Assembly: GCA_947631115.1 (NCBI GenBank)
Contig: CANRKB010000002.1
Coordinates: 1 to 64,000, forward strand
Direction of reading: 5' to 3'
Length of the DNA: 64,000 nucleotides
From: an uncultured Clostridia bacterium
GTDB taxonomy: Bacteria > Bacillota > Clostridia > Oscillospirales > Ruminococcaceae
Position numbers and translations under genes: made by a program. The first letter of the stretch is position 1, and each line of letters opens with the position of its first letter. This document shows, piece after piece, positions 4,811 to 21,748 of this stretch. The notes below the pieces were generated by a model that worked only from the letters and a program-made list of their open reading frames with translations, was not told where the DNA came from and did no database searches.

Positions 4811-4814
4811 TTGT

Positions 4815-6779: not shown

Positions 6780-7460
6780 CTAATCGCTCCGTATAGATTT
6801 TGCTTTTCTCAAAAGTGCCGCCAAATAATGCCCCGCGCAGACAAACGCCCCCATAACCGCAAGATAGTCCAGGAGATACAAGATCAGCGGCTCGTCGAGG
6901 TCAAAGAAAACGAAGTGGATCTGTAAAAACATATACCCCGCGAAATTCCGCTTGATGAATGCATAAACCCCGTAAGCAGCGACAAGCCACCCGACAATAC
7001 GCGTTGTCCATTTGCGTACTGCGGATTTTTTCTTGAAAAGGCGTTCTGCCATGTTCAGAATATTGCCCCAGTGCAGCCCCAGATGCAGCGATAAAACCGC
7101 AAATCCCCAGTACGCGCAAAGCAGGTGCGCGGTTTGCGCAATTGCCTGCAAAGGTCGATTCCCAAGGAACATGAAAACCGTGCGCGAGAGCAAAATTCCG
7201 CTTATCATCGAACCGAGCATTGCAAGCGTCACTAACACTACAACTGTCGTTTGCGCTATGCGATATGGCGTGTATTTGCCCTTAAACAGCGCCTTGCTCC
7301 ACCTTACATTCAAAATATGGTGAAGAACGAACAGCGCGAAAATCCCCACTCCAAGCCACTCGTGCGCCTCTTCGCCGACTAAGCTGTACGCCACAAGCGG
7401 CAGCAAAACGGCGGTCATGCTAAAGTCAACGGAAATTTTAAGTATCAGTTTAGGCTTCAT
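6780..7460 (-). CDS. DUF4405 membrane protein, cytochrome b561-like
   Basis: A 226-residue protein with six or so hydrophobic helices. Paired histidines lie in helices: 'HEW' near residue 33, 'LHHILN' near 46, 'HLL' near 131 and 'LHLGLHW' near 144-150, the pattern expected for a heme-b-binding four-helix bundle as in DUF4405/cytochrome b561 relatives. Its start overlaps the stop of the esterase-flavodoxin gene by 4 bp. In an operon with a flavodoxin, a membrane b-type cytochrome could move electrons across or into the membrane (inference). Degenerate remains of a second copy lie at 30.9 kb. Confidence 0.85.
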   Translation of the reverse strand: MKPKLILKISVDFSMTAVLLPLVAYSLVGEEAHEWLGVGIFALFVLHHILNVRWSKALFKGKYTPYRIAQTTVVVLVTLAMLGSMISGILLSRTVFMFLGNRPLQAIAQTAHLLCAYWGFAVLSLHLGLHWGNILNMAERLFKKKSAVRKWTTRIVGWLVAAYGVYAFIKRNFAGYMFLQIHFVFFDLDEPLILYLLDYLAVMGAFVCAGHYLAALLRKAKSIRSD

Positions 7461-9031
7461 AATAAGGCTTTGACCCTATCTATCCACTCGTCGATTTCTG
7501 CCTGCGAAGTTTTCAAGGTGTCGCCGCCCGTCGAATCAAACTGCACCTGCATTTCGCAAACAGATTTCGCGCCCTTGCAGGCTTTTTGAATGTCCTTGAT
7601 AACATGACCTGCCCAGCCGCCGTTTGTCGCAAACGGAATGACCGTCTTTCCCGTCCAGTCCCGACTGCTGAGAAATGTCAGCATAGCGGGAGCCATAGTG
7701 TACCACCAGGTCGGAGTTCCAACCGCAACAATTTCATATTCGGAAATATCTACAGTCGGCTTTATTTCGGGCTTAAAACCGCTGTTCACCTCGCGCTTTC
7801 CCTGCGCCACAACCTCGTCATAGCTGCCCTCATACGGCGTCACGGTGTCAATTTCTTCAATATTCGCGCCCGTAGCTTTCCCGAGCTGTTCGGCAATTTT
7901 TTTCGTGTTACCGTTCGACCACGAATAATATACGATAAGAATTTTCTTCATCAGTTCCTCCGTTCTGCTGTCAATCAAAAAAAACAACGGCAACGCATTA
8001 TACAGATACTCCTGCACCGCGTCAAAATCGTGATACCCGCCGTCTTTCTGGTAGAAAACATAATGTTCGGGCGTGAAAACCTCGGGTCTTTCAAGCATTT
8101 CTTCCGCCTGCATAAGCGTCTGACTTTTGACGGCGTCCTGCGTTCCGACCGCATGATAAATAAAATATCCGCGCTCGTCAAGGTCGTTTTCCTTTACAAG
8201 CTGCTCGATAAAATCAACGTTCTTTTCCGTCTGAAAATCCCCGTAAGTGCCGTAATACCAACAAGAACCGCTCATCGGCAGGAAGTATTTTATATAATCG
8301 TAGTCGTAGCAAAATTCCAGCCACGTCGTTACCGAGCCGAGCGAAAATCCGCCGAAAACTCGGTGATCGCGCGAGGCGGCGAGATCCTCCGCGCTTGTGG
8401 AATTTGCATAAGTGTGAAATTTCCCCTCGACTGCGGGCATAAGATTTTCCTCAAAATCACGGTGAAACTCGCGGAATTCGGCAATTGAACTGCTGAAATC
8501 CCTGTCGCTGTTTGCATTGTAAAAGCTTGCCGAAACGATTATAACGGGCGGTATATCCTTGTTTGCAATCAGGTTGTCAAACATATTTTTCGTCGGCGTG
8601 TACTCAAAATATTCCCCCGCATGACCGCCCCAGCCATGCATTAAATAAATGATGTCATACCGCGTTTCGCTGTTTTCGTCATACCCGTAGGGCAGGTAAA
8701 CATACGCCGTTTTGGTTATCGGCGCGCTGCCGCGCAGATAGTCGCAGGAGTCATATTTTAATTCGACAACCTCGCCTTGTTTATCGGCAGTTTGCTTGTA
8801 TTCTTCGGGAACGGCGGTTGTAAATCCCGTTTGAGGGATTGAAACAGGTGCGGTTTCAGAGTTGCTGTCAACTGACGCTGATGAATTAACGTCAGCTGAC
8901 GAACTCTCTGAAAATGCCGAATTTTCCGATTTACTTGCGCTTTCAGCTGAACTTTCATTCGCATTGTTCTGACACCCCGCAAGCGATAACGCCATAATTC
9001 CCGACAATAACATAATTAAGTTCCTTTTCAT
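7457..9031 (-). CDS. Lipoprotein esterase fused in frame to a flavodoxin
   Basis: Residues 1-20 form a lipoprotein signal (lipobox LSLAGC), followed by a Ser/Glu/Ala-rich linker to about residue 65. Residues 75-355 are an alpha/beta hydrolase of the feruloyl-esterase/esterase-D type, with 'LMHGWGG' and nucleophile elbow GGFSLGS. From residue 361 (ATG at 7951) a complete 164-residue flavodoxin starts (KKILIVYYSWSNGNTKKIAE; 'GTPTWWYTMAPAM'). An internal GGAGG at 7961-7957, five bases before that ATG, suggests the flavodoxin is also made alone. Otherwise it would be carried outside the cell. The gene lies 10 bp after the Fe-ADH. The fusion may result from loss of the esterase stop codon. Confidence 0.88.
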   Translation of the reverse strand: MKRNLIMLLSGIMALSLAGCQNNANESSAESASKSENSAFSESSSADVNSSASVDSNSETAPVSIPQTGFTTAVPEEYKQTADKQGEVVELKYDSCDYLRGSAPITKTAYVYLPYGYDENSETRYDIIYLMHGWGGHAGEYFEYTPTKNMFDNLIANKDIPPVIIVSASFYNANSDRDFSSSIAEFREFHRDFEENLMPAVEGKFHTYANSTSAEDLAASRDHRVFGGFSLGSVTTWLEFCYDYDYIKYFLPMSGSCWYYGTYGDFQTEKNVDFIEQLVKENDLDERGYFIYHAVGTQDAVKSQTLMQAEEMLERPEVFTPEHYVFYQKDGGYHDFDAVQEYLYNALPLFFLIDSRTEELMKKILIVYYSWSNGNTKKIAEQLGKATGANIEEIDTVTPYEGSYDEVVAQGKREVNSGFKPEIKPTVDISEYEIVAVGTPTWWYTMAPAMLTFLSSRDWTGKTVIPFATNGGWAGHVIKDIQKACKGAKSVCEMQVQFDSTGGDTLKTSQAEIDEWIDRVKALL

Positions 9032-9040
9032 TTTGAAACC

Positions 9041-10198
9041 TCAACTACATTCGTTCAAAACTTCAAGTAATTCTTCCCTCGTGAATTTCTTACAGCAACC
9101 GCCCGTCAAGACCGTGCTGTCCGCAATCGCCTTGAAATCGGCGTTTGAAATGCCCATTTCGGAGAATTTTGTCGGCAGCCCGACTTCCTTGATGAAATCG
9201 GCGAGCGCGTTTATAAACTCCTCGGCAAGTTGCCCCTCGCTCTTGCCGTCGGGAGAAACGCCCCACACGTTCACCGCCAGCCGCGCGAATTGCGCCGCCG
9301 CTTCGGGGAGCATACGCCGATACAGCACGGGGTGAATAACGGCAAGCCCCTCGCCGTGGTTGCAGTTGGTATACGCGCCAAGCTGATGCTCCAGCATATG
9401 CGCCTGAAAGTCCGTAACTTTGCCGATTTTCAGCATGCCGTTCTCGGCGATCGCCGCCGCCCATACAAGTTCGCTCCGCGCGGTTTTGTCCTTCGGATCT
9501 TTCAGAGTTGCACGCAGATTTCGGATAATGTTCCTCTGACAAGCCTCGTTGATCTCGTCCGAAAGATTGACGTCCCTCGGCGCTCCCATATAGGTCTCCA
9601 TGCAGTGGGAGAGCGCGTCGAACGCTCCCGACACGACTTGTCTCATCGGCATTGTCATAGTGTACGCGGGATCTAATATCGCAAAGCTGTAAAACGCTCC
9701 CCACAGCGCCCCCTTGATCTTCTTCTCCTCGTGCGTGATGACCGCGCCGTTATTCATTTCCGCGCCCGTGCCGAATGCCGTCACCACCGCGCCCATCGGG
9801 ATAAACTCGCTCGGCGAACCGTGCTTCTCGTTTTCAAATTCCCACAAATCGTCAGCAAGTTTAGCCTGCGCGGAGATCACCTTACAGCAGTCGATAACGC
9901 TCCCGCCGCCGACCGCAAGAATGAAGTCGATACCGTTTTCACGGGCAAGCCTCGCCCCCTCCCGAACCTTAGCGTAAGTCGGATTTGACATTATCCCCGA
10001 AAATTCCGTGACGTTCTTGCCTGCGGTTTCCAATATGCTCATAAGTTCGTCATATATGCCGTTTTTCTTTATTGAACCGCCGCCGTAAGCCAGCATAACG
10101 TTTTTGCCGACTTTTGCAAGCTCGGCAGTCAAGTTGTTTTTCGCCGCTTTTTCGCCGAAGTAAACTTTTGTGGGATAACTATATGTGAAAGTGTTCAT
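9041..10198 (-). CDS. Iron-containing alcohol dehydrogenase, BDH-like
   Basis: Fe-ADH of 385 residues, distinct from the one at 2.5 kb. Nucleotide-binding GGGSVIDCCK (about residues 94-103), 'GTGAEMN', and metal motifs GAFDALSHCME and LEHQLGAYTNCNHGEG provide the Asp and three His ligands. Best matched to butanol dehydrogenase-type enzymes. ATG 10198 overlaps the stop of the upstream AKR, with GGGAG 11 bases ahead. Second gene of the LysR-type operon A; probably reduces an aldehyde or ketone together with the AKR. Confidence 0.93.
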   Translation of the reverse strand: MNTFTYSYPTKVYFGEKAAKNNLTAELAKVGKNVMLAYGGGSIKKNGIYDELMSILETAGKNVTEFSGIMSNPTYAKVREGARLARENGIDFILAVGGGSVIDCCKVISAQAKLADDLWEFENEKHGSPSEFIPMGAVVTAFGTGAEMNNGAVITHEEKKIKGALWGAFYSFAILDPAYTMTMPMRQVVSGAFDALSHCMETYMGAPRDVNLSDEINEACQRNIIRNLRATLKDPKDKTARSELVWAAAIAENGMLKIGKVTDFQAHMLEHQLGAYTNCNHGEGLAVIHPVLYRRMLPEAAAQFARLAVNVWGVSPDGKSEGQLAEEFINALADFIKEVGLPTKFSEMGISNADFKAIADSTVLTGGCCKKFTREELLEVLNECS

Positions 10199-10199
10199 T

Positions 10200-11045
10200 T
10201 TACTTAAATCTCCCGTGTAATGCCCGTACAAAATTCGGGTCGAAGTGATCAACTATTTCGCTATGCCCGATGTCCATTTTTGAAATTGCCGCCATATCCT
10301 CGTCCGACAGCGTGAAGTTCCAGATGTCGATATTCTGCTCCATGCGCTCACGGTGAACGGACTTCGGAATTACGACAACTCCGCGTTGAACATTCCACCG
10401 AAGAACCACCTGCGCCGCGGATTTTCCGTACTTCGCGCCTATTTCGGTCAATACGGGATTTGCAAAAATGCCGTGCTTGCCCTCCGCAAAAGGTCCCCAT
10501 GCTTCGGGAGTTACCTCGTATTCCCGCATCAGTTTCAACGCGTTTTCCTGCTGGAAGAACGGGTGCAGTTCGACTTGGTTGACCGCAGGAATGACCTCGA
10601 CCGTCTCACAAAAATCCGCTAAAACGTGCGGATAGAAATTGCACACGCCGATTGCGCGAATACGTCCCTCTTTATACAGCTCCTCCATCGCGCGCCATGC
10701 GCCGTAATAGTCGCCCATAGGCTGATGAAGAAGGTACAAGTCGAGATACTCCAGACCTAATTTTTTCATTGAAGTTTCAAACGCCTGCTTTGCCTTGTCG
10801 TAACTTGCGTCAGATACCCACAGCTTTGTTGTAATAAACAAGTCCTCACGCCGCGCACCGCTTTTCTTTATTGCCGCGCCGACAGCTTCTTCGTTGCCGT
10901 AAGATGCCGCAGTATCTATGAGCCTGTAGCCTGTGCTGACAGCGTCAAGCACCGCCTGTTCGCACTGCGCAGGGTCGGGGACTTGAAACACCCCGAAGCC
11001 CTCCATAGGCATTTTCACGCCGTTGTTAAGTGTTTTGTACTCCAT
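10200..11045 (-). CDS. Aldo/keto reductase, 2,5-diketo-gluconate reductase (AKR5) type
   Basis: A 281-residue NADPH-dependent carbonyl reductase. Catalytic tetrad Asp44, Tyr49 (IDTAASYGNE), Lys74 (ITTKLW) and His107 (LYLLHQP); C-terminal 'VIPKSVHRERMEQN' is the NADP 2'-phosphate loop. ATG 11045 was chosen because AAGGAGG lies 8 bases ahead; longer in-frame starts extend into the promoter. First gene of operon A (AKR, Fe-ADH, esterase-flavodoxin, DUF4405), transcribed from the LysR-type promoter at 11077-11144. Confidence 0.94.
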   Translation of the reverse strand: MEYKTLNNGVKMPMEGFGVFQVPDPAQCEQAVLDAVSTGYRLIDTAASYGNEEAVGAAIKKSGARREDLFITTKLWVSDASYDKAKQAFETSMKKLGLEYLDLYLLHQPMGDYYGAWRAMEELYKEGRIRAIGVCNFYPHVLADFCETVEVIPAVNQVELHPFFQQENALKLMREYEVTPEAWGPFAEGKHGIFANPVLTEIGAKYGKSAAQVVLRWNVQRGVVVIPKSVHRERMEQNIDIWNFTLSDEDMAAISKMDIGHSEIVDHFDPNFVRALHGRFK

Positions 11046-11076
11046 AATAAATTCCTCCTTAATAGTTGTTATCTTT

Positions 11077-11144
11077 ATTATAACCCCAATTTTGCGCAAA
11101 GAGAAGTCTCAATTAGTTCATCAGTTAAAACAAAAAGTTTGAAC
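11077..11144 (-). promoter_or_regulatory. LysR-type operator/promoter, site A
   Basis: Minus-strand TATAAT at 11082-11077; 18 bp upstream lies GAGACTTCTC (11110-11101) in the -35 position; 13 bp further lies a degenerate 21-bp dyad (11144-11124, GTTCAAAC-N5-GTTTTAAC). Sites B (14.8 kb) and C (19.5 kb) have the same elements at exactly the same spacing. The absence of a standard TTGACA is typical of promoters activated by a LysR protein. The upstream edge overlaps the 3' end of the broken AKR gene. Confidence 0.8.
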
Positions 11145-11149
11145 CGAAA

Positions 11150-12136
11150 TCAACGGAGTATTTTCGCTCCCCCGAACACCTCGGACATCTCCATGTGATT
11201 GAGTGCGCAGTCGATACGCGCAAGTTCTTCGGGCGACAGCTCAATATCCGCCGCTCCCGCGTTTTCGCGAAGCCGTTCGGACTTTCTTGTGCCTGGGATA
11301 GCCACGAGATTTTTGTGCTTGCACAGCATCCACGCAAGGGAAATCTTCGCGGGAGTTGCGTGCTTTTCCTCGGCAGTTTTTTCCTAAAGCGCAAGTAGTT
11401 CCCGATTTTTGGAAATTCCGTCAGCTGTGAACTGCGGCATTCTGCTGCGGTAATCGTCGCTTGCAAATTTGGCGTTTTGGTCGTATTTCGCGGACAACAG
11501 CCCGTTTGCAAGCGGGGAGAAAGCCACATAACCTACGTTCAACTCGTCGAGCGCAGAAAACAGCTTTTCGTGCCACCGCGCCATCATCGAATAGCGGTTC
11601 TGCACCGCCGCAACGGGACAAACCGCGTGCGCGCGGCGAAGATATTCCTCCGTCGTTTCGGAAATTCCCCAAAAGCGGATTTTGCCCTCTTTGATAAGCG
11701 AAGCCATCGTTTCCGCAACCGTTTCGGGTTCAACTTTCGGGTCAATTCTGTGTTGATAGTAAAGGTCGATATAGTCCGTCCCAAGCCGTTTCAGACTGCC
11801 CTCCACGGACTTGCGTATCGTTTCGGGGCGGGAATCGGTCAGCAACCCGTCGGGTGCGTGCCGAACGCCGAATTTTGTGGCGATAACCACCTTTTCGCGG
11901 TAGGGCAGGAGCGCCGCGCCGACCAACTCCTCGTTATAAGCAATACTGCCGTCGGACAGCCTGCCCGTGTAACACTCCGCCGTGTCGAACATCGTGTAAC
12001 CCAACTCCACCGCCTCGTGCAGCAGCAGCGTCATTTCCTTTGTGTCGGACGGCGCGCCGAATGCGTGCGTCATGCCCATACACCCCAAACTTACAGCCGA
12101 TACGGTGAGTTCTTTCCCCAAGGTTCGGTATTTCAT
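11150..12136 (-). pseudogene. Aldo/keto reductase broken by an in-frame TAG
   Basis: Full-length would be 328 residues, the same as the AKR at 1.5 kb. ATG 12136 has GGGAG 8 bases ahead. Catalytic residues (FDTAECYT, ATKFG, YYQHR) are intact. After '…KNRELLAL' a TAG occurs at 11386-11384, and the same frame continues without interruption as EKTAEEKHATPAKISLAW… through 'IPGTRKSERL' to a TGA at 11152-11150. One base change from a Leu codon (TTG) would create this stop. The 250-residue product lacks the cofactor-binding C-terminus and is probably inactive. Last gene of operon B. Confidence 0.85.
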
Positions 12137-12153
12137 ATAATCATCTCCCAAAA

Positions 12154-12831
12154 TTATTTTGAAAACAGCCACCCCATAACCGCTTCGTCATACGCCGCAA
12201 GACCGCCCCCGCCGTGTTCGTTGCCTACTCCGCGGTCGGTGAAGTAGCTGTGCGGCTTAACGTCAAGCGTTACAAGCCGCGAGATCTCGCTCTCCGAAAG
12301 CCCTTTGCTGCGGTAAATTCCCGTCAGCTTTTCATAAGCCTGTTTTGACGGCTCGGAGCCGTAATACTCGTCATTCTCGCCGATGAAGATATACACGGGC
12401 GTTTCGCTTTCGGCAAGTGCTTCCAGATCGCCGTCCCACTGCGAACTTACATGAAGATACGCCGTAAACAGTTCGGGGCGCTTGCCCATGACGAGCGACA
12501 TGGTCTCCCCGCCGCCCGAATAGCCGTTTGAGTAGACCTTTTCACGGTCGATGTTGTAGGCGTCAAGAAAGTATTCCGCCAGCGCGATCGTCTGGTTCGC
12601 CGAAGTCTCTCGCCAATCGGAAAGCTGCGGCGCGACAACAATCATCTTGTCGTTGTACTTCTGCGCCTCAAATCCGAATGCCTCGGATTTCAGATTTTGC
12701 GCCACGCCCTGAAAATACAGCCCCTCATATCCCGGCAAAGTAAAGAACAATGCGTAAGGCTCACTCCCGTCATAGCTTTCGGGAACATAGACGTTGTAGT
12801 GAATATCCCCGTTATTCGGCGAATGATACAC
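12154..12831 (-). CDS. Alpha/beta-hydrolase (PHB depolymerase-like esterase) without a normal start
   Basis: Residues show an esterase core: 'YVPESYDGSEPYALFFTLPGYEG', nucleophile elbow YSGGGE (GYSGGG), 'IFIGENDEYYG' for the acid and 'KPHSYFTD' near the catalytic His. Such proteins are normally exported and begin with a signal peptide. Here the only in-frame start is a GTG at 12831 with no ribosome site, while recognisable esterase sequence (YNITVGTETYNGFVIDN) continues upstream to the stop of the flavodoxin gene at 12900. The gene has therefore lost its own N-terminus, or depends on readthrough or frameshift from the flavodoxin. It could be non-functional. Confidence 0.65.
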   Translation of the reverse strand: MYHSPNNGDIHYNVYVPESYDGSEPYALFFTLPGYEGLYFQGVAQNLKSEAFGFEAQKYNDKMIVVAPQLSDWRETSANQTIALAEYFLDAYNIDREKVYSNGYSGGGETMSLVMGKRPELFTAYLHVSSQWDGDLEALAESETPVYIFIGENDEYYGSEPSKQAYEKLTGIYRSKGLSESEISRLVTLDVKPHSYFTDRGVGNEHGGGGLAAYDEAVMGWLFSK

Positions 12832-12899
12832 GTTGTCGATTACAAAGCCGTTGTAAGTTTCCGTTCCGACAGTGATGTTATAATCCTTGTCGGAACGCC

Positions 12900-13724
12900 T
12901 TATAGGTCCAAGCTGTCAACCCAGTCTTTAACTGTGTCCTCGCTTGCTCTAGACTGGAAACGCTGTCCCTCAAACCAGTTGCCCGTGCCTGCCATTTCGG
13001 CGAGAAGCTTTCCGCTCTGTCCGAGACCTGATGAAGTCGATGTGCAGAACGGAATGACCGTTTTTCCCGTGAAATCGTTCGCTTCGACGAAGCCGTCTAC
13101 TACCCAAGCCGCGATCCCCCACCAGATAGGATATCCGATAAACACCGTGTCGTAGTCTGCCCAGTTGTCGACCGTGGTCGTGACAAGCTCGACATCGCGC
13201 AGGCTCTCGTCGTCATGCTCACGGGAAACGCGGCTGTTACGGTTCGTCCAGTCGAGGTCGTCGTTTGTGTACGGCTCTGTCGGCGTTATCTCAAACAAAT
13301 CAGCATCTGTCGCCGTCGCGATATACTCGGCAATTGCCTTAGTGTTCCCCGATGCCGAATAAACCGCGACAAGCGTTTTCACGCCCTCGGTCGGGGTCTC
13401 ACTCGGCGTGCTGTCGGTTGAGGTTTCGGTCGGGGAACTTGCGGTCGAACTTGATTTGCTCTCCGAGTTGTTGGAAGAAGTCGCCCCACTTTGCGAACTG
13501 TCGGAAGATGTTGTTGAAGCGGACGAACTCGAATTACTCTGCGAATTGTCGGAAGAAGTCGTCAAAGTGGACGAAATTGAATCACTTTGCAAACTGTCGG
13601 AAGAAGTCGTCGAACCTGACGAACTTGAATTGCCTTCCGAACCGTCCGAAGTTGTCGAACTGTTGCACCCCGCCAAGGTGAACATCATCACCGCGCTTAA
13701 AATCAATGCAGTTAGTTTTTTCAT
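12900..13724 (-). CDS. Flavodoxin lipoprotein (extracytoplasmic flavodoxin)
   Basis: ATG 13724 (AAAGGA 5-6 bases ahead) begins a lipoprotein signal: KKLTALILSAVMMFTLAGC, with Cys at residue 19. A Ser/Thr-rich linker of about 100 residues follows, containing three 16-residue repeats. From about residue 122 a flavodoxin (Flavodoxin_4 type) begins: 'TLVAVYSASGNTKAIAEYI' is the FMN phosphate loop, and 'YDTVFIGYPIWWGIAAWVV' supplies the aromatic residues stacking on the isoalloxazine. The arrangement places an electron-transfer domain at the outer face of the membrane. It lies 14 bp after an esterase lipoprotein in operon B. The electron donor is not evident; the DUF4405 protein is a candidate. 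Confidence 0.88.
   Translation of the reverse strand: MKKLTALILSAVMMFTLAGCNSSTTSDGSEGNSSSSGSTTSSDSLQSDSISSTLTTSSDNSQSNSSSSASTTSSDSSQSGATSSNNSESKSSSTASSPTETSTDSTPSETPTEGVKTLVAVYSASGNTKAIAEYIATATDADLFEITPTEPYTNDDLDWTNRNSRVSREHDDESLRDVELVTTTVDNWADYDTVFIGYPIWWGIAAWVVDGFVEANDFTGKTVIPFCTSTSSGLGQSGKLLAEMAGTGNWFEGQRFQSRASEDTVKDWVDSLDL
13465..13638 (-). repeat. 48-bp tandem repeat coding for the Ser-rich linker
   Basis: Three 48-bp units (13495-13542, 13543-13590, 13591-13638) and a partial 30-bp unit (13465-13494) encode the linker of the flavodoxin lipoprotein, each ending in a TTSSD-like block. Units differ by a few substitutions. The number of units could vary between strains without changing the frame. 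Confidence 0.75.
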
Positions 13725-13738
13725 AACATTCCTTTCTA

Positions 13739-14752
13739 TTAGTTCATTTGCTTTTCCCAAAACGAAACAGCGTCGTTTATCCACCCTTCCGCAACTGTTC
13801 CCGTGCCAAGTCCGAAGCCGTGCGACAGCCCCTCGTAGGCGTGGAATTCGGTGGGAATTCCGAGCGCGGACATTGCGTCAAGCCGCGCTTCCATAGTGCG
13901 CCAGTTCGCTATCCCGTCGCTTGTTCCTACGCAGGAATATGTCGGCGGATCGTCCGCGTTGTATTCGCTGTGTCCTGTGTACTGAATAATGCAAGCCGAC
14001 GGTTTCGGGAGGTTGTCACCGCCGAAATATGCCGTGCCATAAGTGCCGAGATACGCCGCCATTCGCCCGCCTGCCGAGCCACCCCATAATGAATAATCAT
14101 TCGTGTCAACCTGAAGTTCTTCGGCATTTGCGAAAATAAAGCTGATAGCCCTAGCCAGATCCTCGCAGGCGGTGTCCCAACCCGGTCTGTAAATCAGCGC
14201 GAACGCGTTGTAGCCCATTTTCGACAGCTCCAACGCATGCGGAAAGCTGTCGTGCATTGCTCCCACATACGCAAACCCGCCGCCCGCATTGCACACGGCA
14301 AATTTTGCATTCGGACTGCCCTTGAAGAAAAACAAACCGGTGTCTGCTTTGGCGGGATCGGCAGCCTTTTCCTCGTCGGTGTAGATGTCGTAGAAAATCA
14401 CCTCGCCATTGTCAGCGCGTTCTTTCATATAGTTTGCAATCTCAACCGTTTTTTGCGGGTCAATGTTGTTGTACCATGTAAGCCTTAGATTTCCGAGCGT
14501 GTCACCGCTGTAATAACCGCTGTTTACGGGGAAAATCAGCCTGCCCCAACTGCCGAAAGCGGGGTAATTTATAACGTCCGAAATTGCGGTATTGACCGTG
14601 AAAGGCTGACTTTCGGCAACATTTGAAGTTGAATTGCTTTCGTCAATAGTTGATGTAGACGTTGAACTATTCACTACACTTTCCTCGTTATTCCTCGCCG
14701 AACATGATGTAAAAAAGAACATTATCATCAATCCTAACACTAAACGTTTCAT
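13739..14752 (-). CDS. Esterase lipoprotein (alpha/beta-hydrolase, BD-FAE-like)
   Basis: A 337-residue exported hydrolase. Lipobox 'FFFTSC' puts the lipidated Cys at about residue 17, followed by a short Ser/Thr/Asn-rich linker. The hydrolase has an oxyanion region 'CNAGGGFAYVG', nucleophile elbow WGGSAGG, acid in 'CVGTSDGIANW' and His in GLSHGFG, the arrangement of carboxylesterase/acetylxylan-esterase-like proteins. First gene of operon B, behind LysR-type promoter site B. The ester substrate is unknown. Confidence 0.88.
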   Translation of the reverse strand: MKRLVLGLMIMFFFTSCSARNNEESVVNSSTSTSTIDESNSTSNVAESQPFTVNTAISDVINYPAFGSWGRLIFPVNSGYYSGDTLGNLRLTWYNNIDPQKTVEIANYMKERADNGEVIFYDIYTDEEKAADPAKADTGLFFFKGSPNAKFAVCNAGGGFAYVGAMHDSFPHALELSKMGYNAFALIYRPGWDTACEDLARAISFIFANAEELQVDTNDYSLWGGSAGGRMAAYLGTYGTAYFGGDNLPKPSACIIQYTGHSEYNADDPPTYSCVGTSDGIANWRTMEARLDAMSALGIPTEFHAYEGLSHGFGLGTGTVAEGWINDAVSFWEKQMN

Positions 14753-14772
14753 GCTCTCACCCCGCTGATTTA

Positions 14773-14840
14773 ATTATACAAAAAAAGAGACCTCGTGAGA
14801 AGTCTCTTTTGGTTTATCAGTTGTAACCAAAAGTTACAAC
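14773..14840 (-). promoter_or_regulatory. LysR-type operator/promoter, site B
   Basis: Minus-strand TATAAT (14778-14773), 18 bp, GAGACTTCTC (14806-14797), 13 bp, then a strong 21-bp dyad GTTGTAAC-N5-GTTACAAC (14840-14820). The spacing is identical to sites A and C. The dyad begins 2 bp after the lysR stop codon. It drives the esterase/flavodoxin lipoprotein operon. Confidence 0.85.
14780..14810 (-). terminator. lysR terminator overlapping promoter B
   Basis: On the minus strand AAAAGAGAC (14810-14802) pairs with GTCTCTTTT (14791-14783) and is followed by more T residues. It fits an intrinsic terminator for lysR. Its stem occupies the -35 region of promoter B, and its T-run abuts the -10 box. 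Confidence 0.65.
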
Positions 14841-14841
14841 T

Positions 14842-15726
14842 TTAGATTACCGCCTTGACCGCCTCCAAAAACCGCTCAACGGTGGGCGATGGCTCGTTTG
14901 AATACAATACCCCGAACGGTATTTTGTACTCCCAGTCCACGGGGATAACTTTTAACATAGGGTGAACGCAGTTCCAACTTTTGATGACCAGAAGCACGTT
15001 CTTTTCCTGCTCGCAGCGGTTAAAAATGCTCATATCGTAAAAGTCAAAATCGGTGATTTTTATCTGCTTGTGTTCGGTCAATTCATCTCTCACTTTGTCA
15101 ACATAACTGCTCCACCCCCTGTGCATTAAAAGCAGTTCCTCGCCGTACAAGTCGCTTATCGACAGCTTTTCTTTTTTCGCTAGCGGGTGATAGATCGAAA
15201 CTGCGCAACAAAGCGGTTCTCGCGTTATCTCGAACCCTGCGCACCCGCGCACTTCAAGCAAAGTGTCGTCAAACAGCCCCGTCACCACGTCGATGTTCTG
15301 TCCGAGATTTTTCAGTATCTCCCGCGCGTTTTCTGGGGTATTTTCAAACGGCACAAGCTGAAAACTGATGTCAGAACAGTGCTCGTGAATTTTCGACCAC
15401 AAGTCGGTAAGTATCTGCGCGGGCGTCATGGGCGAAGTGCCTATGCGGATAACGGCACTTTTTTCGTTCCCCGCGCGCCTTGCGCGGCGCACGGCTTCCT
15501 CGCTGTATGACACGATATATTTCGCGTCGGTGTAGAGCGATTCGCCCGCCTTCGTGAGTTTCAAGCCCCTGTGTGTGCGCTCGAAAAGCGAAACGCCGAC
15601 TTCGTTTTCGAGCAAATTTATCTGCTTTATGACGGCGGTGGAAGTGATGAAAAGCTCCTCCGCAGCCTTGTTGAAACTGCCCGCCTCGACAATTGCGATA
15701 AAAGTTTCAAGGTGTATATTGTTCAT
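14842..15726 (-). CDS. LysR-family transcriptional regulator
   Basis: A 294-residue regulator. Residues 3-62 form the winged HTH ('LETFIAIVEAGSFNKAAEELF', 'LENEVGVSLFERTHRGLKLTKAG'), and residues about 90-290 the periplasmic-binding-protein-like effector domain. It lies between operons B and C and beside operator site B, so it is the natural candidate to bind sites A, B and C. Its own promoter (15748-15776) is a standard SigA type, unlike the three target promoters. The inducer is unknown. Confidence 0.95.
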   Translation of the reverse strand: MNNIHLETFIAIVEAGSFNKAAEELFITSTAVIKQINLLENEVGVSLFERTHRGLKLTKAGESLYTDAKYIVSYSEEAVRRARRAGNEKSAVIRIGTSPMTPAQILTDLWSKIHEHCSDISFQLVPFENTPENAREILKNLGQNIDVVTGLFDDTLLEVRGCAGFEITREPLCCAVSIYHPLAKKEKLSISDLYGEELLLMHRGWSSYVDKVRDELTEHKQIKITDFDFYDMSIFNRCEQEKNVLLVIKSWNCVHPMLKVIPVDWEYKIPFGVLYSNEPSPTVERFLEAVKAVI

Positions 15727-15747
15727 GGCATTGCCCCCTTTTTTGAT

Positions 15748-15776
15748 ATTATAGCATAAAAAGGGGGATTTTGCAA
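15748..15776 (-). promoter_or_regulatory. SigA promoter of lysR
   Basis: Minus-strand TTGCAA (15776-15771), 17-bp spacer, TATAAT (15753-15748). The -10 is enclosed by an inverted repeat of CCCCCTTTTT and AAAAAAGGGGG, the latter also acting as the G-rich ribosome site before the ATG at 15726. The inverted repeat could mask the ribosome site. Confidence 0.75.
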
Positions 15777-15818
15777 TACAGATTTTCGGTTCTGTCTATA
15801 TTTCAATCAGTTGTCATT

Positions 15819-16226
15819 TTAACGCCGTCTGAAATCAACATCCACAATAATTTCACCGCGCTGATGATCGCTGCCGTCTATCGCAAAAGTTCTTAATGCG
15901 TCTTTGAAGTCGTCGGCAAAATCTTCTTCGCCTGTAAACCCTTTTTCATACTTTGAAATTGACCATTTAATCAAATTTGAATTGGGATCAGGATCGGAAT
16001 ATTCCATAATTACAACATACTCATTTCCTTTCCATTCAAATAAAAACGCGTGGTCATTAAAATCATCCCGCCCGAGATTTCCCAAATGCCAAAGACACAT
16101 GTCTTTTTCCGTGTCAATGGTTCTGCAACGCGGACACGCAACGTTGCCTAAAATGGGGTTCTTAATTTGACGGTTCTTAAAGTCAATTCTTTGCCCGGTT
16201 GTTAATCTCTCGTTTACAAATGCCAT
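15819..16226 (-). CDS. Hypothetical protein with CPRC motif
   Basis: A 135-residue soluble protein, not recognised. It begins MAFVNERLTTGQRIDF, contains one CPRC pair near residue 33 that could bind zinc or form a disulfide, and a C-terminal half rich in Asp, Glu, Phe and Tyr. It has its own promoter (TTGCAG-17-TATAAT, 16299-16271) and lies alone between lysR and operon C. Confidence 0.75.
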   Translation of the reverse strand: MAFVNERLTTGQRIDFKNRQIKNPILGNVACPRCRTIDTEKDMCLWHLGNLGRDDFNDHAFLFEWKGNEYVVIMEYSDPDPNSNLIKWSISKYEKGFTGEEDFADDFKDALRTFAIDGSDHQRGEIIVDVDFRRR

Positions 16227-16270
16227 AGTCTGAACCTCGTAATAATAAAAGTATTAAGTGTATCTATGCT

Positions 16271-16299
16271 ATTATAACATATTTTGGGGGATTCTGCAA
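16271..16299 (-). promoter_or_regulatory. SigA promoter of the CPRC-motif protein gene
   Basis: Minus-strand TTGCAG (16299-16294), 17-bp spacer, TATAAT (16276-16271). The spacer shares an AATCCCCC block with the lysR promoter spacer. Confidence 0.75.
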
Positions 16300-16332
16300 T
16301 AAAAAACGCAAACAGATTATCTGTCCGCCGTT
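16298..16332 (-). terminator. Terminator of operon C
   Basis: A 12-pair stem with one bulge (16332-16320 against 16316-16305) followed on the minus strand by GTTTTTTATT. It lies 10 bp after the DUF1893 stop codon. Confidence 0.7.
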
Positions 16333-16341
16333 TAAACTATG

Positions 16342-16755
16342 TTATCCCGTCATCCTGCGTTTCAGCGCGGCAAGTCCCTCTTTCGGCTCGGAAATATCCT
16401 TCACGGTTTCCTCCATAGGGCAAATTCCGTCGCCGTTTCGGTTGATGATTTGCTCGGTAAGTTTACCGTATTCGCAGGCAATTTTGTAATTTGCGAAAAT
16501 CTCCGCTCCCGCACGGCTTAAAACCTCGGCGTAAACCTCCTTCACATCGAGAAGTACATACAAAAACGCTGCTGCCTTTCCGACAATTTTGTCGGCAGCC
16601 GAAAATCCGTTCAGGTTTTCAGCACTGTCAACCTGCTCCACAAGCGGCTTTACACCGCGCTTTGTGCTTGTAATTACTTTCTCGCCCTTGCACAGAACGC
16701 AGGTGTAATTGTTTTCGGAAAGCAAGGTTTTCGCGTTTTCCAAATCAGTTGTCAT
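16342..16755 (-). CDS. DUF1893 family protein
   Basis: A 137-residue soluble protein matching DUF1893: N-terminal 'LLSENNYTCVLCKGEKVITSTKRGVKPLV' and central 'AADKIVGKAAAFLYVLLDVKEVYAEVLS' are the family signature, and 'DGICPMEETV' near residue 108 is conserved. The known structure of a family member has a cytidine-deaminase-like fold, but its activity is not established. The start overlaps the end of the ECF S-component gene by 11 bp. Last gene of operon C. Confidence 0.87.
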   Translation of the reverse strand: MTTDLENAKTLLSENNYTCVLCKGEKVITSTKRGVKPLVEQVDSAENLNGFSAADKIVGKAAAFLYVLLDVKEVYAEVLSRAGAEIFANYKIACEYGKLTEQIINRNGDGICPMEETVKDISEPKEGLAALKRRMTG

Positions 16756-17308
16756 TTTTCTTCAAATTCTCCACACGATAGACGATAAGCGGCAGCAACG
16801 CCCATTGCAAAGCCAATCCGAATAGCCCCGTGCCTATGCTCGTCCAGATTGTCGAAATGTTGACTTGACTTCCGAAAGCGTAAACTCCGAGCAAAATCGC
16901 GCCTGCTCTTACCGCGCGTCCCGCGATCTGCGCTATAACGACCTTAACGATCGTCGGAAGTTTTACATTCCGCAGAAGTCCCGCCGTTAAGCCGTAAATG
17001 CACAACTCAACCATCATAAACGGCAGCATAACGGCGTTCGGCATTCCCGAAAGTGCAAAGCTGCAAAGCGGTCCGAGAAGTCCCGCGATTGCTCCCGCAT
17101 ACGGTCCTGCAAGCAGTCCGACGAGAATTATCGGCAGGTGCATAGGTAAAAACGCCTCGCCGAGTGATGTTCCAAGTCCCGACGCTGCGCCTAAAACGTG
17201 GAAAATCTGCGGAACGGCAACCGCCCCGACAATTGCCGCGAGCGTTGCAATCGTCTGCACTTTCACCGACAAACGTGGTTTTTCAATGGTCTTAATTGCT
17301 GTTGACAT
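16745..17308 (-). CDS. ECF transporter S component
   Basis: A 187-residue membrane protein with about six helices. The segment 'FLPMHLPIILVGLLAGPYAGAIAGLLGPL' (residues about 53-80) is the signature of substrate-binding S components of energy-coupling-factor vitamin transporters. AAAGGAGG lies 6 bases before the ATG. The ECF ATPases and T component are not in the window and would be supplied by a shared module elsewhere. The vitamin or cofactor is unknown; co-regulation with flavodoxins makes a flavin or nicotinamide precursor possible (inference). Confidence 0.85.
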   Translation of the reverse strand: MSTAIKTIEKPRLSVKVQTIATLAAIVGAVAVPQIFHVLGAASGLGTSLGEAFLPMHLPIILVGLLAGPYAGAIAGLLGPLCSFALSGMPNAVMLPFMMVELCIYGLTAGLLRNVKLPTIVKVVIAQIAGRAVRAGAILLGVYAFGSQVNISTIWTSIGTGLFGLALQWALLPLIVYRVENLKKNDN

Positions 17309-17320
17309 AATTTTCCTCCT

Positions 17321-18526
17321 TTAGTCAATACTTATCAGTTTATACTCGCGATTTCCAAGCCCTATATCCTCGGCGTGTTCGAGGGTGTGCAGACCCTGCT
17401 GACGCTGAACGCGGTTTTGCAGAGATTCGCTACCCTCCGCCGCGAAACAGAGGTCAATCGCCGCCTGGTCTATCGCCACGGGATCTGTTGACGCTAAAAT
17501 TCCTATGTCGTGAATATCGGGCTCGGCAGGATTTCCGTCACAGTCGCAGTCTATCGAGATGTTGTTTAAAACGCTGACGTAAACGATTTTCTTGCCCTTG
17601 CCGAGAAAATCGGAAACCGCTTTTCCCGCTTCAGCCATCGACTCGGTAAACGCGATTTGGTCGCCGCCCCACGGACTTGTATGGCTTTGACCGCCCGTGT
17701 GGATAAGGCATTTGCCCTCTTTCGAGCCAAGTCCTATTGAGATGTTCTTGATCGCCCCGCCGAAGCCCGCCATCGCGTGTCCCTTGAAGTGCGACAGCAC
17801 GATATACGAGTCGTAGTTTACAAAATGCGAGCCGACATAATCCGTTTTAAGGTGACTTCCGCCGTCAACCTGAATTTGCACGGAGCCTTCTTCGTCAAGA
17901 ATGTCGACGTTCGCTATGTCGGTGAAGCCGTGGTCTTTCGCAACCTGTTTGTGCATCGCAGTTTCACTGCGAGAGCCGCCGTAAGCGGTGTTGCATTCGA
18001 CGATAGTTCCGTTCACCGACTGCACCAAGTCCTTGATAAGCTCGGGGCGAAGGTAGTTGGAAGCGGGCGGCTCGCCAGTGGACAGCTTTATTGCGACTTT
18101 TCCCGTGGGCGACCAGCCAAGCGCATTGTACACAGCCATCATGCCTTCGGGGGAGATGTCGGAGGTGAAGTACACGGTGGATTTTCCGTCGGTTATTTCC
18201 TGAACAGTTGAGGAACTGCTTGAAGATGAACTTGACGAACTTTGCGAAGAAGAACTGCTTGATAAATTTACCGAGGACGAACTTGAAGAACTGTCCGTGC
18301 TGTCAGTTGACGAACTTTCCGAATTGTCTGATGAACTGTCTATGGTGTCTGTTGTTGAATTATCCGATGATGACGAAGCATTTGAAACGCTTGACGAACT
18401 CTCCGATGAAACATCATCATCGGGCGGGAAAACCAAGGGCGCGTCGCTGCCGGTATTCGACGAGTTGCACGCCGAAAGTCCCAAAGCGATAATCACGCTT
18501 AGAAAGCCAATTGATAATTTTTTCAT
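17321..18526 (-). CDS. DUF362-domain lipoprotein
   Basis: Residues 1-20 form a lipoprotein signal (IALGLSAC), then a Ser/Asp-rich linker to about residue 112. Residues 115-390 are a DUF362 domain: 'VAIKLSTGEPPASNYLRPELIKDLV', 'AYGGSR', 'VLSHFKGHAMAGFGGAIKNISIGLGSKEGK' and 'DIGILASTDPVAIDQAAIDL'. Usual DUF362 proteins are cytoplasmic and often carry ferredoxin-type clusters; this one is exported and has no CxxCxxC motif, though it has scattered Cys (DCDCDG). AGGAGG sits 4 bases before the ATG. Second gene of operon C; molecular function unknown. Confidence 0.87.
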   Translation of the reverse strand: MKKLSIGFLSVIIALGLSACNSSNTGSDAPLVFPPDDDVSSESSSSVSNASSSSDNSTTDTIDSSSDNSESSSTDSTDSSSSSSSVNLSSSSSSQSSSSSSSSSSSTVQEITDGKSTVYFTSDISPEGMMAVYNALGWSPTGKVAIKLSTGEPPASNYLRPELIKDLVQSVNGTIVECNTAYGGSRSETAMHKQVAKDHGFTDIANVDILDEEGSVQIQVDGGSHLKTDYVGSHFVNYDSYIVLSHFKGHAMAGFGGAIKNISIGLGSKEGKCLIHTGGQSHTSPWGGDQIAFTESMAEAGKAVSDFLGKGKKIVYVSVLNNISIDCDCDGNPAEPDIHDIGILASTDPVAIDQAAIDLCFAAEGSESLQNRVQRQQGLHTLEHAEDIGLGNREYKLISID

Positions 18527-18535
18527 ACGAACCTC

Positions 18536-19450
18536 CTATAAAATCAAGTTGACAAGCAAGCCTGTCGCAAGTGAAAACACCATCACGAAAGCTATGTAAA
18601 TGATAAACCGTTTCACGCCGAGGACGATTTTCAGCGCGCCTAAATTCGTGATTTTCGTCGCGGGACCCGTTATCATAAACGCCGACGCGCTGCCCATACT
18701 CATGCCCATTGACAGCCATTCCCGGATTAGCGGGATCGTTCCGCCGCCGCAGGCATAGAGCGGCACGCCGATTGTCGCCGCCATAAGTACGCCGAAACCC
18801 TCGTTTGCTTCGCCAAATAAAGCGGCGAATTTGTCTGCGGGAACATACCGCTGAAACAGCGCGGACAGCAGCACTCCTACAAGAAACCACAATCCCGTTG
18901 CCTTGATGTTGCGTCCGAGGTTGAACAGAAACCGCAAAAACAGGTTCGGGTGCGTGTCGTGACTTGCCCTCGGTTCAAAACCTTTGAAGTCGAAAAACGG
19001 CTTGTCCTTGTAAACAAGATGAACGACAATTCCTGCGACGATCCCGCACAACGCACAAGATACAATGCGGATTACGAGTGCCGTTACTCCCAAAGCGGAA
19101 GAATACATGATAAGTTGAGGGTTGAGCAAAACGCTCGACATCATAAACGCCGCAAGCCAATCGTGGCGCATACCGTGCTTTGAAAATGAGGCGGCTATCG
19201 GTATCGTTCCGTACATACAAAGCGGGGAAGCGATGCCGAGTAAGCTTGCGGGAACAACTCCCCACAACCCCCATTTTTTATCGCGGATACTCTCAAAAGC
19301 CTTGTGAATACTGTCCTTTGCGAACACCGAAACAAGCGAGCCTATGACCATTCCCAGCGCCCAGTAGCCGACAATCTGCCGCAGCTGAACAGTAAAATAA
19401 TACCACACATAGACAAATTCGCGCTGTATAATTTCAAATATTTCGGTCAC
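18536..19450 (-). CDS. ArsP/DUF318-family permease
   Basis: A 304-residue membrane protein with about eight helices arranged as two homologous halves. The duplicated motifs 'GIASPLCMYGTIPIA' (about residues 71-85) and 'IGVPLYACGGGTIPLI' (about 227-242), each with a conserved Cys in a re-entrant loop, identify the predicted permease family that includes the organoarsenical exporter ArsP. First gene of operon C behind LysR-type site C. The natural substrate here is unknown; arsenicals are only one possibility. Confidence 0.9.
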   Translation of the reverse strand: MTEIFEIIQREFVYVWYYFTVQLRQIVGYWALGMVIGSLVSVFAKDSIHKAFESIRDKKWGLWGVVPASLLGIASPLCMYGTIPIAASFSKHGMRHDWLAAFMMSSVLLNPQLIMYSSALGVTALVIRIVSCALCGIVAGIVVHLVYKDKPFFDFKGFEPRASHDTHPNLFLRFLFNLGRNIKATGLWFLVGVLLSALFQRYVPADKFAALFGEANEGFGVLMAATIGVPLYACGGGTIPLIREWLSMGMSMGSASAFMITGPATKITNLGALKIVLGVKRFIIYIAFVMVFSLATGLLVNLIL

Positions 19451-19480
19451 AAAATCACCTCCGCCGGTGCTTTTATCTAT

Positions 19481-19548
19481 ATTATAATTAAAAATCCTAT
19501 TTTTGAGAAGTTCCTTTTGGTTTATCAGTTGTAACTTTTGGTTACAAC
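19481..19548 (-). promoter_or_regulatory. LysR-type operator/promoter, site C
   Basis: Minus-strand TATAAT (19486-19481), 18 bp, GGAACTTCTC (19514-19505), 13 bp, then dyad GTTGTAAC-N5-GTTACAAC (19548-19528). The dyad and the following CTGATAAACCAAAAG are nearly identical to site B. It precedes the permease/DUF362/ECF/DUF1893 operon. Confidence 0.85.
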
Positions 19549-19626
19549 CGATACATTATTACATTTGGCGAAGTCCTAAGTTTGTTCGGCAAGTGCTGTC
19601 AGCGTGTTTTTATAGGCAACGTGTCG

Positions 19627-19725
19627 ATTATAGACACGTTCGTAAATTCGATTTATGTGTATGATGATAAGGCAATAATAAACTTTAATTGCAGAGAGGA
19701 TCTAAGACGATTCCTCTCAAATTAA
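19627..19725 (+). pseudogene. C-terminal remnant of a serine recombinase
   Basis: A 32-residue open frame without start, reading IIDTFVNSIYVYDDKAIINFNC and ending at TAA 19723-19725, matches the conserved tail of large serine site-specific recombinases (…FVNkIylyDDKi.i.fN). A parallel remnant lies at 30778-30858. A hairpin with T-run (19713-19754) follows. Confidence 0.65.
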
Positions 19726-19778
19726 GTACTTACGTTTCGGATTTGAGGGGTTTTGCAGAATACAGTGTACAGTAGTTG

Positions 19779-19817
19779 AAATCCGCCCATAGCTTCAAGG
19801 CTGTGGGCGGATTTTTT
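19779..19817. terminator. Intrinsic terminator, convergent
   Basis: AAATCCGCCC…GGGCGGATTTTTT forms a long stem (outer 10 bp perfect, inner arms ATAGC/GCTGT) with TTTTTT on the plus strand and a weaker tail on the minus strand. It lies between the recombinase remnant and the TetR gene. Confidence 0.8.
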
Positions 19818-19859
19818 ATTACTCCGTTATGTCCGCGGATTTTCTGCGCAACCGGCTCG

Positions 19860-20423
19860 TTACTTCTCATTCACCCCGTTGATTCCGTTGCAAATCAGCT
19901 TTGTCGTAAGTTCGATGATTTCGTCCAGCGGGATCTTCTTTTTGTCCGCTGTCCACTGCTTGTAAATCTCAATCGTCGCCTGCGAGACGAACGCCATGAT
20001 TATATTCTGAACGTATGGGTTAACGTTCATGCGCTTGCCGTCCGTGCCCCAGGTTTCCGACATGATTTCGTTGGTGATCCTTCTGCTGATGTAGTGGTAA
20101 CTCCCGCTGCACATCAGCCTTTCGTGAAGCCGTCCCGCGCCCTCGCTCACGAGAAAAAACTCGCGCGTTATCTTGTCCATATCCCGCGGACGCTCAAGAT
20201 TTTTCGTGCGCTCGATAAAGCTTTTCGCCATTTCATTTTGCATTTCAAGTAATAAGTCATCAAGCGAATTGTAGTGCAGATAAAACGTTTTTCGGTTAAT
20301 CCTCGCGCGTTCCGTCAGCTCCTTTATCGTGATTTTTTCGTAGTCCATTTCGCAGATCATCTCTTCAAAAGTCTTGCGGATAGCCTCTCTTGTGCGGATT
20401 ACGCGCAAATCTTCTTTATCCAT
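19860..20423 (-). CDS. TetR-family transcriptional regulator
   Basis: A 188-residue regulator. The N-terminal HTH ('RVIRTREAIRKTFEEMI', 'ITIKELTERARINRKTFYLHYNSLDDLL') is typical TetR, and the C-terminal part resembles the TetR_C_8/DhaS-type ligand domain. ATG 20423 was preferred to 20465 because AGAGGT lies 6 bases ahead. Its target is not obvious: no transporter or enzyme gene lies divergently next to it, only decayed sequence. Confidence 0.92.
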   Translation of the reverse strand: MDKEDLRVIRTREAIRKTFEEMICEMDYEKITIKELTERARINRKTFYLHYNSLDDLLLEMQNEMAKSFIERTKNLERPRDMDKITREFFLVSEGAGRLHERLMCSGSYHYISRRITNEIMSETWGTDGKRMNVNPYVQNIIMAFVSQATIEIYKQWTADKKKIPLDEIIELTTKLICNGINGVNEK

Positions 20424-20528
20424 AGCGTACCTCTTTCTTTTTTGATTTAAATGTAAATTTCTCATTTTATCCCGCTTATACCGGACAGAAAAACTATGCT
20501 CATTAACAGTGATTATCTCCCTCGTTGA

Positions 20529-21275
20529 TTATTCATTCTTTGAAATCAAATTTCCGTGATTATGTTTTATGGCATAGTAAAATTCATCTTCATCGGAAAA
20601 TACAGTCTCTTTGTCCCAGATGATCATTCCCTTTTGCACTTTGTTTTGATATATAAGGACCCAAACCTTGTAATCCCTAAGGAAAGCGCCCTCATTTTGC
20701 CAAAATTTATAGAAATCATATAAGCCGACTTCCCGTGCTGTTTCACCTTGATCATAAATTTTAATTTCTAACTCTAAACCGCCCGTGTATGGAGCCGAAG
20801 TTTTATAATTGTCCATGTAAGAATAGTCAAGTGACGCTGTGATGTTTCGCGGATTAAAGAATCCGTCTTTAATAATTTTGTCAAATTGTGTGTCTGCCTT
20901 CCTATAGTAGTAAGCGTCAAAAACAACCTCACCATAATGTGCTATGATATAAAAAGTCACTCCGTCAAGTTCCAATTGCATACTACTGTCTTGATGAGGA
21001 CCAGCCGGAAGCTGGACAGGGAATGACATATCAAGTATTTTTATTGTGTCGGGATAATTGTCTTTTACATATTTCAACATCGCCCGCTTATCCTCCTGAC
21101 GCTCAAATCTCCACCATGCGGGCGGATCAATGAAAATATCAAACACATTGAATAAAATCAATGCTGCAACAACCGAAAGAGCAATTATTCTCTTTTTCGT
21201 GAAAAAATGCCTACGCTCCTTTTGCGTGTCGGTCCTGTCACTGCTTATTTGCATATCGTTGTTTTCTGTATTCAT
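20529..21275 (-). CDS. Hypothetical single-pass membrane protein
   Basis: A 248-residue protein with a charged cytoplasmic N-terminus (residues 1-28), one membrane helix (about 30-50, IIALSVVAALILFNVFDIFI) and a hydrophilic outer domain of about 195 residues rich in Asp, Tyr and Phe. The outer part has 'QLELDGVTFYIIAHYGEVVFDAYYY', which may form beta-strands. I do not recognise the family. TGGAGA lies 4-5 bases before the ATG. It stands alone, upstream of the TetR gene on the same strand. Confidence 0.72.
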   Translation of the reverse strand: MNTENNDMQISSDRTDTQKERRHFFTKKRIIALSVVAALILFNVFDIFIDPPAWWRFERQEDKRAMLKYVKDNYPDTIKILDMSFPVQLPAGPHQDSSMQLELDGVTFYIIAHYGEVVFDAYYYRKADTQFDKIIKDGFFNPRNITASLDYSYMDNYKTSAPYTGGLELEIKIYDQGETAREVGLYDFYKFWQNEGAFLRDYKVWVLIYQNKVQKGMIIWDKETVFSDEDEFYYAIKHNHGNLISKNE

Positions 21276-21401
21276 ATGTTCTCCATTCTATAAAATTATT
21301 TATTTATATTATACACAATTTACTCCCAAAAGTCAACCCGTGTGTAATAATCCTCATTCTCCAAAAAATGAGGCGTAAACCTCTCTCGTAGGAAAAATGA
21401 T

Positions 21402-21635: not shown

Positions 21636-21748
21636 CAATTTTCGAATACAATTCATAAAGTTGCCCGTACCTCTCGAAGTTCTCTTTGAGGGGTATACTA
21701 TTGTTCGGCGGAGTTAAGAAATCGCGTCATTCGCATAAATACCATATC

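Follow-up and report, generated by a model that had tools for sequence, protein, structure and literature searches.

Three operons in a 64,000-nucleotide stretch of DNA from an uncultured Clostridia bacterium (family Ruminococcaceae; assembly GCA_947631115.1, contig CANRKB010000002.1, positions 1 to 64,000; the whole stretch is called the window here) carried the same promoter site and, on comparison of sequences, almost certainly form one regulon. The gene for a LysR-type regulator adjacent to one of these sites very probably encodes the protein that acts on all three, and this protein probably activates rather than represses its targets. The initial annotation of this DNA, made without database searches, had proposed a single regulon with a LysR-type promoter; comparison with other genomes strongly supported this proposal through the co-occurrence of site and LysR and through shared target genes.

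The sites, named A (11077..11144), B (14773..14840) and C (19481..19548), all lay on the minus strand, upstream of the AKR/Fe-ADH, esterase/flavodoxin and ArsP/DUF362 operons, respectively (AKR, aldo/keto reductase). Coordinates, strand and register were as the initial annotation had described them: a 21-bp dyad, 13 bp, a 10-bp box, 18 bp and TATAAT. The dyad was perfect in B and C; that of A was degenerate. Site B began 1 bp past the lysR stop codon. The box read GAGACTTCTC in A and B and GGAACTTCTC in C. Pairwise identity over the first 44 bp was 35 for A/B, 29 for A/C and 37 for B/C.

With up to three mismatches allowed, the dyad occurred three times in the window against an expectation of 0.14, and none of 100 shuffled sequences reached three. 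Two of these occurrences were exact and the third was an unrelated 3-mismatch place at 12850. A pattern scan of the whole genome with the dyad alone added only weak places (three mismatches), and the longer 26-bp core AACTGATNAACN5GNNACTTCTC was therefore used. Exact copies of this core in the 2.06-Mb genome were sites A, B and C only. Allowing up to three mismatches gave four places (A, B, C and one with three mismatches), and a reversed control pattern gave one match.

In total, 35 sites from the window and from LysR loci on named contigs aligned over 72 columns without gaps (compared loci and genomes carry L and G numbers, respectively). Among the invariant columns were parts of the dyad, the ACT and AC of TGATNAAC, ACTTC in the box and three positions of the -10 element. 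A weight matrix was built from 29 of the 35 sites, leaving out the three window sites, two from L022 and one from L021, so that the two copies nearest to the window's contributed nothing. This matrix ranked the window sites first (B, 100.0; A, 74.7; C, 67.0), and the next place in the window scored -5.1.

LysR-type promoters have a T-N11-A dyad around -65, with a further element around -35. The layout of the window sites is, by its sequence, that of a predicted LysR-activated promoter. The dyad centre lay 57 bp before the last TATAAT base, or at about -64 on the assumption that transcription starts about seven bases later. In B and C, dyad positions 5 and 17 formed T-N11-A, which was degenerate in A. 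The ACTTCTC box spanned the -35 region beside a good -10 element, and the match to a -35 element was weak (TTCTCA in B and C).

The LysR-type regulator (14842..15726, minus strand, 294 aa; HTH_1 and LysR_substrate by Pfam) was found between sites B and C, where the initial annotation had placed it. The 35 sites were made into a sequence-only model, which was run on 43 genomes of the same genus; the LysR protein was searched for in the same 43. LysR at 60% identity or more was present in ten genomes (G000, G008, G017, G023, G030, G033, G034, G063, G065, and G066), all ten of which had the site at E <= 1.1e-7; six of the ten had given no site to the model. Among the remaining 33 genomes, two (G024 and G011) had a site at E <= 1e-4. 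The G024 genome was 83% complete and had only Est_B1 and Fe-ADH pieces downstream of its site; this locus (L067), with its site and gene pieces and without lysR, looks like a remnant of the cluster. The G011 site was weak (E 3.4e-5) and preceded relatives of Est_B2, flavodoxin, DUF4405 and AKR_B. Four genomes with LysR relatives of only 36-43% identity (G013, G019, G029, and G062) had no site at E <= 0.01. Weak matches (E 0.02-0.1) in four further LysR-poor genomes or at extra places were at chance level.

Across the order, the site was found at E <= 1e-4 in 23 of 295 genomes, representing 20 of 148 genera. At least four of these 23 genomes (G000, G199, G211, and G342, by coordinates) had supplied sites to the model. 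LysR at E <= 1e-80 was found in 16 of 22 site-positive genomes (G000 excluded) versus none of 18 site-negative genomes, the latter being the rows of genus and family listed, out of 272 negatives.

The LysR search of named contigs returned 38 loci, 34 of them at 66-98% identity and the other four at 22-27%. All 34 loci with LysR at 66% or more bore "Lapin" isolate names, a word that we take to mean rabbit. A rabbit-only regulon was considered and dropped: LysR genes at 60-67% occurred across the order and would be missed by the named scan, which was seeded with exact peptides.

The genes behind the site were compared at 79 distinct sites scoring above 25. A gene of a library family started within 1.3 kb on the same strand at 71 of these sites. 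The other eight comprised five sites within 501 bp of a contig end and three without a library family. Excluded from the count were duplicate window loci (L001-L007 and L059-L062), L156, L157 and L176, and loci with weak hits (L075-L077, L084-L086, and L092). Of the library families, four (hydrolase lipoprotein, cupin lipoprotein, RibD_C, and flavin reductase) had themselves been drawn from genes adjacent to sites; at four of the 71 sites a gene of these was the first target. Because LysR had been the criterion for choosing many of the loci behind the 79 sites, the order-level set was the fairer test. In that set a family member lay directly downstream of the site in 16 of 16 further genomes (L180-L195), taking only the best site per genome and not counting the loci of model genomes (L177-L179).

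Gene order around the site varied among loci. In L026, L028 and L052 the DUF362, ArsP, flavodoxin, AKR, Fe-ADH, esterase and DUF4405 genes all stood behind one site that followed lysR, joined in L028 and L052 by Est_B2. In other loci the same genes were split into two or three groups with one site each. In L051 both esterase types were fused in one lipoprotein of 636 aa. The order-wide target set also included cupin lipoproteins, RibD_C, flavin reductase and SDR proteins. These rearranged single-site loci give the best grounds for treating A, B and C as one system.

The gene content that the initial annotation had given to the three operons was borne out by Pfam, apart from two open reading frames (ORFs) that were interrupted in one genome or another. 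All genes lay on the minus strand. Behind site A were AKR_A, a DkgA-like aldo/keto reductase (10200..11045, start codon assigned by eye); a YqhD-like Fe-ADH (9041..10252, a later start being likely); a lipoprotein ORF uniting a CE1 feruloyl-esterase-like domain with Flavodoxin_4 (7457..9031, Pfam and PDB relatives); and a DUF4405 membrane protein, a probable b-type cytochrome (6780..7460). In AKR_A, D50/Y55/K80/H113, which we take to be the Asp-Tyr-Lys-His tetrad, were invariant in 35 homologues. In the Fe-ADH, D212/H216/H285/H299, presumably the metal ligands, were invariant in 20 homologues. The CE1-like domain matched XynY at E 5e-43 as well as other ferulic acid esterases, and its Ser230, Asp299 and His334 aligned with solved esterases and were conserved in 18 homologues. 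Six histidines of the DUF4405 protein (H33, H47, H48, H112, H126, and H130) were invariant in 15 homologues. The esterase-flavodoxin ORF was two ORFs in L022 and L024 and was split in L021 too; the single ORF in the window may be either a real fusion or a sequence error.

Behind site B were Est_B1, a BD-FAE-like esterase with PDB esterase relatives (13739..14752); Fld_B, a lipoprotein Flavodoxin_4 (12900..13784) with an internal ATG as its likely start and PDB relatives 4ici, 4j8p and 3klb; Est_B2, an alpha/beta hydrolase (12154..12831; Pfam Peptidase_S9, PDB esterase LC-Est1C); and AKR_B, an aldo/keto reductase (11150..12172) ending 5 bp before site A. Est_B1 and Fld_B were assigned by Pfam, with lipoboxes recognized by eye. 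AKR_B had an in-frame stop at 11384-11386, and its counterpart in L022 was an ORF of 328 aa. A frameshift in AKR_B was ruled out in favor of this single in-frame stop.

Behind site C, Pfam identified an ArsP_1-type permease (18536..19450), a DUF362 protein with a lipoprotein-type N-terminus and a lipobox recognized by eye (17321..18526), an ECF transporter substrate-binding component (16745..17308) and a DUF1893 (TM1506-like) protein (16342..16755). The best NCBIfam match of the permease was the SO_0444 family of Cu/Zn efflux proteins (110.2 bits, cut-off 300), and the SaoE model also matched. At the thresholds used, NCBIfam returned nothing for DUF4405, DUF362, DUF1893 or the ECF component. 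Elsewhere in the window, a second AKR/Fe-ADH pair (1452-4004, plus strand, Pfam) was followed by a short flavoprotein-like ORF recognized by eye and had no site. The window also encoded a surface protein of 2044 aa (36117-42251) with six SpaA and three Cna_B stretches.

Site B contained a feature absent from the initial annotation, a terminator-like hairpin of 12 pairs with a T tail (14783..14810, minus strand), whose 5' arm included the box. Such a hairpin was present at 16 of 16 aligned sites downstream of lysR, at positions from overlapping the lysR end to about 0.56 kb beyond it, and at three other aligned sites (L033:14368, L040:14327, and L050:14130), or 19 of 35 in total. The remaining 16 of the 35 sites, A and C included, had no such hairpin. 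A hairpin at L044:11250 was discounted as not credible (-1.5 kcal/mol). The simplest reading is that the site doubles as the putative terminator of the preceding gene. A search of positions 4000-23000 against Rfam returned nothing at gathering thresholds.

Transfer of the cluster between species is likely, because RpoB and LysR identities were discordant, the insertion place differed between genomes and a recombinase-like locus lay beside one copy. In G034, identity to the window genome was 82.7% for RpoB versus 97.6% for LysR; in G017, of the same genus, the values were 84.5% versus 65.9%; and in four genomes recorded as Lachnospiraceae, 64-65% versus 82-84%. Trees were built for 22 of 25 genomes, leaving out G065 (a duplicate of G067), G085 (RpoB unreadable) and G087 (partial LysR). 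G000 joined G067 in the RpoB tree (100/99) and G034 in the LysR tree (100/99), where G017 was distant on a long branch. The cluster lay between homologues of window positions 30.7 and 32.7 kb in L024 and at 6.8-19.5 kb in the window. Beside the cluster in L022 (19127-20165) were two ORFs, resolvase N-terminal and DUF4368, that together appear like one broken gene for a large serine recombinase. A scan of viral contigs for the core returned two contigs sharing one chance-like sequence, with no match to the gene library and no sign of carriage by phage. A plasmid search with LysR returned only a relative at 41% identity.

An evenly balanced proposal for the whole is a LysR-switched regulon that would open plant-type esters and reduce reactive carbonyl or phenolic compounds. 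LysR would bind the dyad and, with its ligand, recruit RNA polymerase. The surface esterases (CE1 feruloyl-esterase-like and BD-FAE-like) would open the esters, and the DkgA-like and YqhD-like reductases, with the flavodoxins, would reduce the reactive carbonyls or phenolics released. A substrate or product would be carried by the permease and the ECF component, and DUF4405 might pass electrons to the lipoprotein flavodoxins. The linking of carbonyl or phenolic handling to esters is held tentatively, at somewhat short of an even chance. Ester cleavage and carbonyl reduction had both been proposed in the initial annotation; the families fit these roles and their catalytic residues were conserved. 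Uptake, a further part of that proposal, is only a possibility, as the ArsP-type permease could equally be an exporter. Extracytoplasmic electron transfer, proposed there too, is possible, since one DUF4405 protein was shown to bind heme (PMC11334425, in the available part of that paper) and the histidines were conserved; the path of the electrons is one that we infer. A bolder reading, which we consider improbable, is a surface pathway of gut Clostridia that is transferable and under LysR control. Its lipoprotein esterases would release plant phenolics or related compounds outside the cell, and a DUF4405 cytochrome with lipoprotein flavodoxins would supply these with electrons across the membrane, whatever enters being handled by the AKR and Fe-ADH in the cytosol. 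Such a pathway would be an inducible extracellular reduction system not yet described.

Several observations weigh against a LysR-switched regulon for esters and carbonyls. The two site-bearing genus genomes outside the LysR group, G011 and G024, had no LysR at E <= 1e-15, and 6 of the 22 site-positive order genomes had none at E <= 1e-80. The nearest solved LysR structures were distant (E 1e-12 or weaker). A LysR relative at 41% identity stood beside flavodoxin, AKR, cupin and CMD genes on a Pusillibacter plasmid and had no site by the matrix. Three sites with enough downstream sequence, two in L050 and one at L164:2902, had no library family behind them. The best NCBIfam matches of the reductases fell below their cut-offs (AKR_A to PRK11565 DkgA, 271.5 bits against 425; Fe-ADH to PRK15138, 249.2 bits against 645). 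The permease, DUF362, ECF and DUF1893 proteins fit the carbonyl reading only loosely and are not explained by it. At L164:2902 the site was followed by an ORF of 126 aa and then by an AKR with 4Fe-4S domains. L169 and L050 (G085) had two good sites, and the first ORF downstream was of 144 aa with no Pfam match.

The rival that survives best, unlikely in our judgment at perhaps half the standing of an even proposition, keeps one regulon and assigns it to the catabolism of a specific plant ester, such as a cell-wall fragment carrying feruloyl or acetyl groups, for carbon or electrons; the reductases would then be sink steps and not a means of detoxification. The CE1 feruloyl-esterase-like protein and the BD-FAE-like esterase, fused in L051, would suit this, as would the "Lapin" names on all 34 closer loci of the named collection. 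However, the families behind the sites included no glycoside hydrolase, ring-cleaving or beta-oxidation gene, and three or more carbonyl reductases exceed the needs of a simple hydrolysis route.

A regulon for another stress or for export (metal, organometal, or quinone), with the ArsP-type permease at its center, is rather improbable. The best matches of the permease, to Cu/Zn efflux and SaoE models, point this way, but their scores were far below the cut-offs, and esterases and AKR/Fe-ADH were commoner as first targets. LysR Cys162 and Cys238 were nearly invariant, even in relatives at about 40% identity, and are a possible thiol sensor that would suit such a stress. The LysR structure model (mean pLDDT 73.1) fell below 50 at residues 229-255 and was too weak there to place the two cysteines in space.

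An alternative in which another regulator acts at the site and lysR is only a passenger of the cluster is very unlikely. The six site-positive order genomes without LysR would be explained in this way, but the co-occurrence of LysR and site in the genus (10 of 10 versus 2 of 33) and in the order (16 of 22 versus 0 of 18) argues for LysR, as do the T-N11-A spacing and the -64/-35 layout, which suit LysR proteins. No other regulator was similarly found beside the sites, the co-occurrence of other regulators not having been tested. Chance resemblance or a recent local duplication without function, suggested by the placement of all three sites within 8.5 kb, has a negligible probability given 35 sites in register without gaps and the same families downstream in 23 of 295 order genomes, and was refuted by the matrix ranking of A, B and C and by the 16 of 16 order-level targets.

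A LysR-controlled regulon of this kind would gather uncharacterised gut families (DUF362, DUF1893, DUF4405, lipoprotein flavodoxins and the ArsP-type permease) into one testable unit whose switch is defined and whose likely regulator gene lies alongside. Scanning other genomes with the site model could reveal additional members, and identifying a single inducer could assign a function to every family of the regulon. The presence of the set in distant Clostridia points to a chemical challenge that recurs in the gut.

The initial annotation knew of no described system with this content. The gene set was not found in the literature searched, where a LysR regulon with this combination of targets is not described; the DkgA/YqhD pair under one activator, by contrast, is known (PMC8262776, available part). 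Both DUF4405 and Flavodoxin_4 occur in one gene set in the flavinylation system of PMC11334425, so far as the available text of that source goes. Unlike that system, the window set is very probably under LysR, with esterases and reductases. In its flavodoxins no insertion after the first strand that could hold a flavinylated residue was seen by eye, no motif or ApbE search having been made.

The Pusillibacter faecalis plasmid pMM59_01 (L176), which was typed as conjugative, resembled the window in carrying the LysR relative, a flavodoxin, a 72% AKR_A relative, a cupin and a CMD gene. It differed in its divergent arrangement and in the lack of a site by the matrix, and the neighbouring genes annotated there included no esterase, DUF362 or ArsP. 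The operon A lipoprotein was alike to the CE1 feruloyl esterase domain of XynY (PDB 1gkk and 6fj4; E 5e-43 and 4e-43) with Ser, Asp and His aligned. Unlike the XynY domain, the window protein was a free lipoprotein outside any xylanase and was co-regulated, on the site evidence, with carbonyl reductases.

The closest parallel in regulation was with Escherichia coli, in which YqhC activates yqhD and dkgA and YqhD protects against aldehydes, according to the available part of PMC8262776. As described there, an activator gene stands beside a YqhD-type Fe-ADH and a DkgA-type AKR, an arrangement that the window, with its probable activator, resembles. YqhC is an AraC-type protein, whereas the window regulator is of the LysR family, and the window adds esterases, flavodoxins, DUF4405, DUF362, a permease and an ECF component. 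The window regulon is not a member of the YqhC type but may work like it.

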